From contig CALRBA010000004.1 of the NCBI GenBank assembly GCA_943353835.1, forward strand, positions 1-54,839: a stretch of 54,839 bases of DNA, written 5' to 3'. Source of the stretch: Candidatus Nomurabacteria bacterium. Lineage in GTDB: Bacteria; Patescibacteriota; Minisyncoccia; Phycocordibacterales; Phycocordibacteraceae. A program made the translations under genes and the position numbers. Within the stretch, counting starts at the first letter, position 1; every line of letters begins with the position of its first letter. Under the pieces are notes generated by a model. That model was not told the DNA's origin and did no database searches. It worked only from the letters and a program-made list of their open reading frames with translations. Positions 1 through 853 of the stretch are shown in pieces.

Positions 1-86
1 GCGGCGTCAACGACCGAGATGCCGTCGTTCTTGATGCGATTGATAATCTGCTCCTTCACGTCCTTGGCGATGCGGTGCTTCTTCAT
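1..86 (-). mobile_element. 5' end of IS transposase ORF (HTH/orfA-like), runs off window edge
   Basis: Minus-strand translation MKKHRIAKDVKEQIINRIKNDGISVVDA resembles transposase N-terminal HTH proteins. A hairpin (90-119) sits just before the start codon. Confidence 0.6.
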
Positions 87-89
87 ATG

Positions 90-119
90 CTTGTATGTTA
101 GTGTGGCTAATCATACAAG
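90..119. repeat. Hairpin upstream of transposase start (CTTGTATG-TTAG/CTAA-CATACAAG)
   Basis: Inverted arms of 8+4 bp with a single bulge, 5-nt loop. Confidence 0.7.
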
Positions 120-476
120 GTTGGTATGCAAATTTTGGGGTCCAGGCCAGGAGTGAGGCCTGGCATTACTAAGAATATTTCGTGATTTCACAAACCCATG
201 AACTGACAATCGTGGTCGGTAAATCAGTGTAAGAATACGATTCAGTTTTCTCTGAATAATTTTGAGAGTTGACACTGGTGCGAATATTTCCCGAATTCCT
301 CCACTCTTCTTTTGTATTTCAAACTTTTTATATGCTTGTGGCTTGTCTGCTCTGTAAAGCAGATAAACAAACGTCGAATACTTAACTTCGAGCAGATCTG
401 CCAATTCCAGCTTTGAGGCTAGTCTTAAAAATCGACTTTTCAACTCTTCATCAGTTAGTGTCAGGTTCGTTTTCAT
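111..476 (-). pseudogene. Retron-type reverse transcriptase, N-terminal fragment, truncated at probable IS boundary
   Basis: YKKFEIQKKSGGIREIFAPVSTLKIIQRKLNRILTLIYRPRLSVHGFVKSRNILSNARPH matches the N-terminal pattern of retron/bacterial RTs; the ORF stops before the catalytic core, next to the IS end. Confidence 0.75.
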
Positions 477-485
477 TATTCTGTT

Positions 486-646
486 CAGGAGAGAGGGTGG
501 AAAAATTCTTCATACTGCCCATACAGGTACATAGGAACCTGAAGATAGGAGGACATAAATACTTATATCCACTACAGCACGTATACCAGACCTTCTTAAC
601 ATCGCCGCGAATACACAGCGAAAAGCAATTCCCACCCTCTCTTCTG
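486..646 (-). ncRNA. Candidate retron msr-msd ncRNA bounded by a1/a2 inverted repeats
   Basis: CAGGAGAGAGGGTGG (486-500) pairs with CCACCCTCTCTTCTG (632-646). Internal hairpins include TCGCTG/CGGCGA and GGATATAA/TTATGTCC. TATAAT lies upstream at 667-672 and the RT start directly downstream. Confidence 0.55.
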
Positions 647-666
647 GATAGAAGTGACCTGGCCCT

Positions 667-672
667 ATTATA
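667..672 (-). promoter_or_regulatory. -10 element (TATAAT) of candidate retron transcript
   Basis: Perfect TATAAT on the minus strand about 20 bp before the a1 repeat. Confidence 0.5.
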
Positions 673-714: not shown

Positions 715-782
715 CGTGATGCCGGGCGGTACTGTACTGGTCTTGATGGGGGACGGTACTGGTTCCTGGCGTCACAACCGTG

Positions 783-853
783 TTGCGGGGGCCAGAATCG
801 AACTGGCGTCTGGAGGTTATGAGCCTCCCGAGGTACCTCTCCTCTACCCCGCT
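783..853 (-). tRNA. tRNA-Met(CAT), initiator-like
   Basis: AGCGGGGTAGAGG...GGAGGCTCATAACCTCC...CCAGTTCGATTCTGGCCCCCGCA. Close to fMet tRNA, A1:A72 unpaired, anticodon CAT, CCA not encoded. Confidence 0.85.

Follow-up and report, generated by a model that had tools for sequence, protein, structure and literature searches.

The minus-strand segment at positions 486–646 of the window (the whole stretch of 54,839 nucleotides analysed here) very probably belongs to a retron of the reverse-transcriptase (RT) clade of types I-C, XI and XII, which was gained at a variable site behind a tRNA-Met gene and has since been disrupted by the insertion of an IS3-family element. Retrons are anti-phage elements whose own RT makes a DNA copy of a structured RNA. 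In those that have been characterised, the RT binds the msr and primes from a branching G that is brought to the template by the inverted repeats a1 and a2, and the RT–msDNA complex keeps an effector in check until a phage infects. Types I-C, XI and XII are single-gene RT–effector fusions, with a Toprim domain in Retron-Eco2 (Ec67; type I-C), a trypsin-like protease in type XI and a TIR domain in type XII.

Inverted repeats and fold upstream of the RT fragment

The features of the locus are, in window coordinates:

1–149, minus strand: 5' end of an IS3-family element, with terminal TGGCCTGGACCCC and the OrfA start at 86, from identity to contig 12:1-149 and from comparison with the full-length relative L087
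150–476, minus strand: N-terminal 109 aa of a retron RT, truncated by the insertion sequence, from PADLOC and identity to full RTs
153–167, minus strand: retron RT motif NAxxH (NARPH), the last conserved motif before the insertion sequence, from alignment with homologues
486–646, minus strand: retron ncRNA core (msr-msd) from a1 to a2, from the fold (z −3.9), the covariance-model match and homologous anatomy
486–500, minus strand: a2 arm CCACCCTCTCTCCTG, from the sequence check and inverted-repeat scan
501–580, minus strand: approximate extent of the msd template, which contains two inner hairpins, from the fold and the a2-proximal comparison; borders predicted
578–594, minus strand: conserved linker AAGGTCTGGTATACGTG, 3' of the msr hairpin and near the msr/msd border, from R1 alignment to the AAGGTTAGCTTTACGTG-type sequence of relatives
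602–621, minus strand: msr hairpin UCGCUGUG-UAUU-CGCGGCGA, from the fold, compensatory changes at 4/6 pairs and the R1 match at 631–578
626, minus strand: predicted branching (priming) guanosine, from homologous position (rG15 of Eco2)
632–646, minus strand: a1 arm CAGAAGAGAGGGTGG, from the sequence check and inverted-repeat scan
667–672, minus strand: candidate −10 box TATAAT, from the sequence check, without a convincing −35
680–714, no strand assigned: hairpin or terminator-like inverted repeat closing the tRNA unit, the last sequence in common with relatives before the retron
782–853, minus strand: tRNA-Met(CAT), the upstream neighbour with the variable site behind it, from Rfam and same-genus comparison

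A structured ncRNA bounded by a1 and a2 lies directly upstream of the RT. Reading from 646 to 632 and from 500 to 486, the two arms pair at 14 of 15 positions with one A·C mismatch, in agreement with the initial annotation, and the interval between them, described there as about 130 nt of hairpin-rich sequence, is folded and measures ~125–131 nt. The RT ATG, said to follow soon after the second repeat, is found at 476–474 with a spacer of 9 nt between it and a2, and the inner elements that had been named, including TCGCTG/CGGCGA and GGATATAA/TTATGTCC, are all located within the candidate ncRNA. The minus-strand segment 477–660 folds to −65.3 kcal/mol (z = −3.9), a value that none of 200 shuffles equalled. 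The TATAAT claimed upstream is present at 672–667; no matching −35 box was found for it, and the promoter scan did not list it.

Taken alone, the repeat is only moderately surprising: ~1.75 inverted repeats of its class (14/16 Watson–Crick, same spacing) are expected by chance per composition-matched 54.8 kb sequence, and the window has two others besides a1/a2. A repeat of the a1/a2 type at exactly this place upstream of an RT is, by our own estimate, roughly a 0.5% event by chance, and in the 360 nt upstream region a1/a2 scores 37.8, compared with 27.4 for the best of 15 shuffles. Inverted repeats of this kind are not unusual in a sequence of 55 kb, and the question was therefore put to homologues, which provide the strong evidence.

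Relatives of the RT fragment and of the ncRNA

The highest-ranking PADLOC matches of the 109 aa fragment are the RT–TIR XII (2.7e-30), RT–protease XI (3.5e-28) and RT–Toprim I-C (2.6e-25) models, with XIII (4e-20) and III-A (3e-15) behind them; the matches listed are retron RTs, and the best PDB sequence match is Retron Ec67 (6e-7). The fragment thus falls among retron RTs, and the first of two outcomes that the initial annotation named as refuting, placement outside retron clades, did not occur. Over its length it shares 44–53% identity with full-length RTs of cyanobacteria, Anaerolineae (TIR), Clostridiales (protease) and Syntrophobacteraceae, the similarity ending just past NARPH. NAXXH is named as a conserved retron motif (PMC12405507). 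The YADD catalytic site and the VTG motif belong to the half of the RT missing from the assembly. Pfam RVT_1 has no match in the fragment, because the fragment ends ahead of most of that domain, and none in the whole genome. By sequence the fragment groups in the XI/XII/I-C clade; a tree of RT N-termini does not separate the three types for it, and the type call is based on 109 residues. In scans of viral contigs the fragment had no relative, and an alignment query gave one short match.

The homologous loci carry the same arrangement. An a1/a2 pair is found upstream of the RT in 22/22 loci measured (the window and 21 others from several phyla), with arms of the same locus pairing at 98% on average and mismatched arms at 55%; the loop is 113 ± 15 nt across loci and the spacing is 70–140 nt. 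The second refuting outcome, RT homologues with no inverted repeats upstream, is thereby also contradicted. Just inside a1, most close relatives carry ATTGATTTYCGTTG..GATCCTGCGACG. The msd sequences are unrelated, which made a whole-ncRNA MAFFT alignment unusable, and the msr core alone was therefore modelled, as a covariance model (R1) built from eight relatives with the window left out. In each of the eight the msr hairpin is fully paired, and four of its six pairs show double-sided changes. R1 has one match in the whole window, at 631–578 on the minus strand (27.6 bits) with all pairs kept; the match is moderate, its E value of 0.003 being roughly calibrated. The held-out loci L006, L011, L071 and L008 are recovered, each upstream of its RT, and the ncRNAs of more diverged members (L040, L074 and L078–L086) score poorly, so that R1 covers a sub-group.

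Among 380 genomes of the phylum, that of the window is alone in carrying the core, with no other R1 match at E ≤ 0.1; the further RTs that profiles detected in the phylum (L041–L054) mostly belong elsewhere and are without it. Apart from tRNA-Met, nothing passed the Rfam gathering score. The R1 match and the 22 a1/a2 pairs support the msr–msd reading of the initial annotation. Its phrase 'uncharacterised retron' stands for the retron and falls for the kind of ncRNA, which on sequence comparison is an existing one, with conserved sequence common to the type XI/XII/I-C-like retron ncRNAs of cyanobacteria, Chloroflexota, Clostridia and Desulfobacterota.

Two alternatives lose nearly all their ground at this point. 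A terminator, an attenuator or a chance repeat upstream of an RT remnant can draw on the expectation of about one or two repeats of such length per 55 kb, but it is refuted by the R1 match inside the repeat and by homologous RNAs at the same place in other phyla, and a loop of this length is wrong for a terminator; we regard it as scarcely credible. Equally improbable is an RT system of another kind (a DRT or group II-like RT), preceded by a structured RNA that has nothing to do with retrons. The fragment is without the catalytic half of the RT, and ncRNAs are reported near the RT in DRT systems too; however, NAxxH is present, the listed PADLOC matches are to retron RTs, and the a1/a2 and branching-G anatomy is a retron feature common to the relatives, which largely refutes such an origin.

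Within the retron of the I-C/XI/XII clade favoured here, an msr stem-loop and a predicted branching G lie just 3' of a1. The layout of a G, four nucleotides and a hairpin reads GATTT in relatives, including the Ec67-like L085, and GCTTT in the window; Retron-Eco2, as resolved by cryo-EM, has A16–U19 directly after its branching rG15 and then a single msr stem-loop (PMC12405507). By homology, the branching G of the window is predicted at 626 and the msr hairpin at 621–602; the G of AATTGC, offered earlier as a candidate for the branching G, is the one homologous to rG15. The msd template probably lies roughly between 580 and 501 and ends, directly before a2, with GAAGAAT; several relatives have a similar GAAT at that place.

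Among known systems, the type XI retron of a Clostridiales member (L007) has an RT N-terminus ~50% identical to that of the window, a1 and a2 114 nt apart, a similar msr (AATTGATTTTCGTTG...GCGACG, compared with AATTGCTTTTCGCTG...GCGGCGA in the window) and similar sequence just before a2 (AGTAAGCAGAAT / AGTATGAAGAAT), but its msd sequence is unrelated and the effector half of the window protein is missing. The type XII retron of an Anaerolineae member (L005) shares the ncRNA anatomy, and XII has the best PADLOC score; however, no TIR domain is visible in the window, and an assignment to XII rather than XI or I-C would be tentative. Retron-Eco2, the best PDB match, shares the G + 4 nt + single msr hairpin layout and a1/a2 but differs in msr hairpin sequence and msd, and the window RT is truncated before YADD. 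The closest RT N-termini, with the msr core in common, are those of cyanobacterial RTs (L003, L004, L006, L071 and L072; 52–53% identity to the fragment for L003 and L004). In contrast to the fusions of the clade, these RTs are unfused, being followed in L071 and L072 by a hypothetical protein and an ATPase. A Syntrophobacteraceae RT of the clade (L008) has the msr core upstream at 1530–1585 (32.1 bits), and beyond AMLHAWEKFG its frame no longer shows the conserved C-terminal part; it is perhaps another disrupted retron. The comparison thus provides a sequence-and-structure model of the msr core for type XI/XII and some I-C retrons, for which Rfam had no match here, and predicts the branching G in uncharacterised members of the clade.

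By analogy with characterised retrons, the intact ancestor would have produced a transcript from near 660 carrying a1–msr–msd–a2 and then the RT. The a1/a2 stem would have placed the branching G beside the 3' end of the msd template. Bound to the single msr hairpin, the RT would have used the 2'-OH of this G as primer in copying ~70–80 nt of msd into branched msDNA. The RT–msDNA complex may then have kept a toxic effector, fused or adjacent, from acting until a phage infected the cell, leading to abortive infection. Both the msDNA chemistry and the defence role ascribed to this retron are inferred from the characterised ones.

The IS3-family insertion and the interrupted gene

The initial annotation recognised the RT as a fragment and missed the cause, an IS3-family element that cuts the gene at 149/150. 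Positions 1–149 of the window are identical to positions 1–149 of contig 12 of the same genome. On the minus strand the end of the element starts at 149 with TGGCCTGGACCCCAAAATTTG, and the start of the transposase OrfA, MKKHRIAKDVKEQIINRIKNDGISVVDA, lies 63 nt deeper. A full-length relative in a same-genus genome (L087) has a left end of the same kind, an HTH_Tnp_1 OrfA and an rve OrfB, which assigns the element to the IS3 family. The contig ends within the insertion sequence, the interior of which is missing from the assembly, and OrfB is absent from the assembled genome. Contig 12 (L023:1-149) opens with a second copy of the end of the element, beside a 222 aa gene of unknown function.

In the assembled genotype the RT is interrupted after residue 109, ahead of the catalytic motif; the population may be mixed. 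A search of all contigs did not find the C-terminal half of the RT anywhere in the assembled genome, and no effector gene lies beside the retron on the contig, the region beyond the insertion sequence being missing from the assembly. As the RT ends before the catalytic YADD, msDNA cannot be made and the ncRNA is a relic; the retron in the window is probably dead, and we infer the same state for the whole population.

Since the genome probably represents a metagenome bin, other members of the population may have an intact allele. It is nevertheless rather unlikely that part of the population has kept an intact retron that still works in some cells, with the insertion a strain variant or an assembly artefact. 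That several contig pairs share exactly 149 bases at their ends, as breaks at the assembler overlap length would produce, and that the contig ends inside the insertion sequence, are in favour of this. Against it, the contig crosses the RT junction into the insertion sequence without branching at 150, the RT stays in frame as far as the terminus of the element, as expected of a real insertion, and the missing RT half was not recovered. The lack of decay in a1/a2, in the msr hairpin and in the RT frame up to the insertion could also hint at an ncRNA kept after RT loss for another role, for example as a decoy or regulator. This is very improbable: the missing decay is just as well accounted for by an insertion that happened recently, and no orphan copy of the ncRNA occurs in the 379 other genomes of the phylum. 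Disruption of a once complete retron remains the preferred reading.

Genomic site and retrons elsewhere in the phylum

In same-genus relatives, conservation runs from the neighbouring 191 aa gene across tRNA-Met and in several of them reaches the hairpin that closes the tRNA unit; beyond this, the sequence differs from genome to genome. No RT homologue was found among 58 same-genus genomes. Given this conserved and then divergent flank and the missing homologues, the retron was most likely acquired at a variable site behind the tRNA gene and broken later by the insertion sequence. The tRNA-Met(CAT) gene itself is split near the anticodon loop in many same-genus genomes by an insert of mostly ~200–280 nt (L106:2606-2858 in genome G023, with similar gaps in L095, L097, L103, L107 and L109). 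Rfam calls the L106 insert a group I intron (73 bits); the tRNA-Met of the window is intronless.

The genome is 534 kb (98.5% complete) and genomes of the phylum are small, both of which fit the label 'CPR' given by the initial annotation. Little is documented about retrons in bacteria whose genomes measure half a megabase, and a full-text literature search found no paper devoted to them. The present locus suggests that very reduced genomes too gain and lose costly abortive-infection systems, here via a tRNA-flanked site and an IS insertion.

A second retron of the RT clade, apparently intact, is found in the same phylum (L040:1349-2809 in genome G342, with a1/a2 at 1194–1328). Profiles for TIR, protease and Toprim all fail to match its C-terminal region, which has a weak match to a pPIWI-associated nuclease family (E = 0.007, below the cut-off). 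It is conceivable, albeit unlikely, that sister strains have an intact allele of the window retron whose C-terminal effector is likewise new to characterised retrons. The effectors of such an allele and of L040 are the most interesting lead from this analysis.

Two further RTs of the phylum (L050 and L054, in genomes G210 and G268) have YADN in place of YADD at the active site, with near-identical long inverted repeats (TGCCGCCAGTCA...TGATTGGCGGCA, loop of 90–94 nt) upstream or at the gene start; by these sequence features, they possibly represent a further retron-like family.
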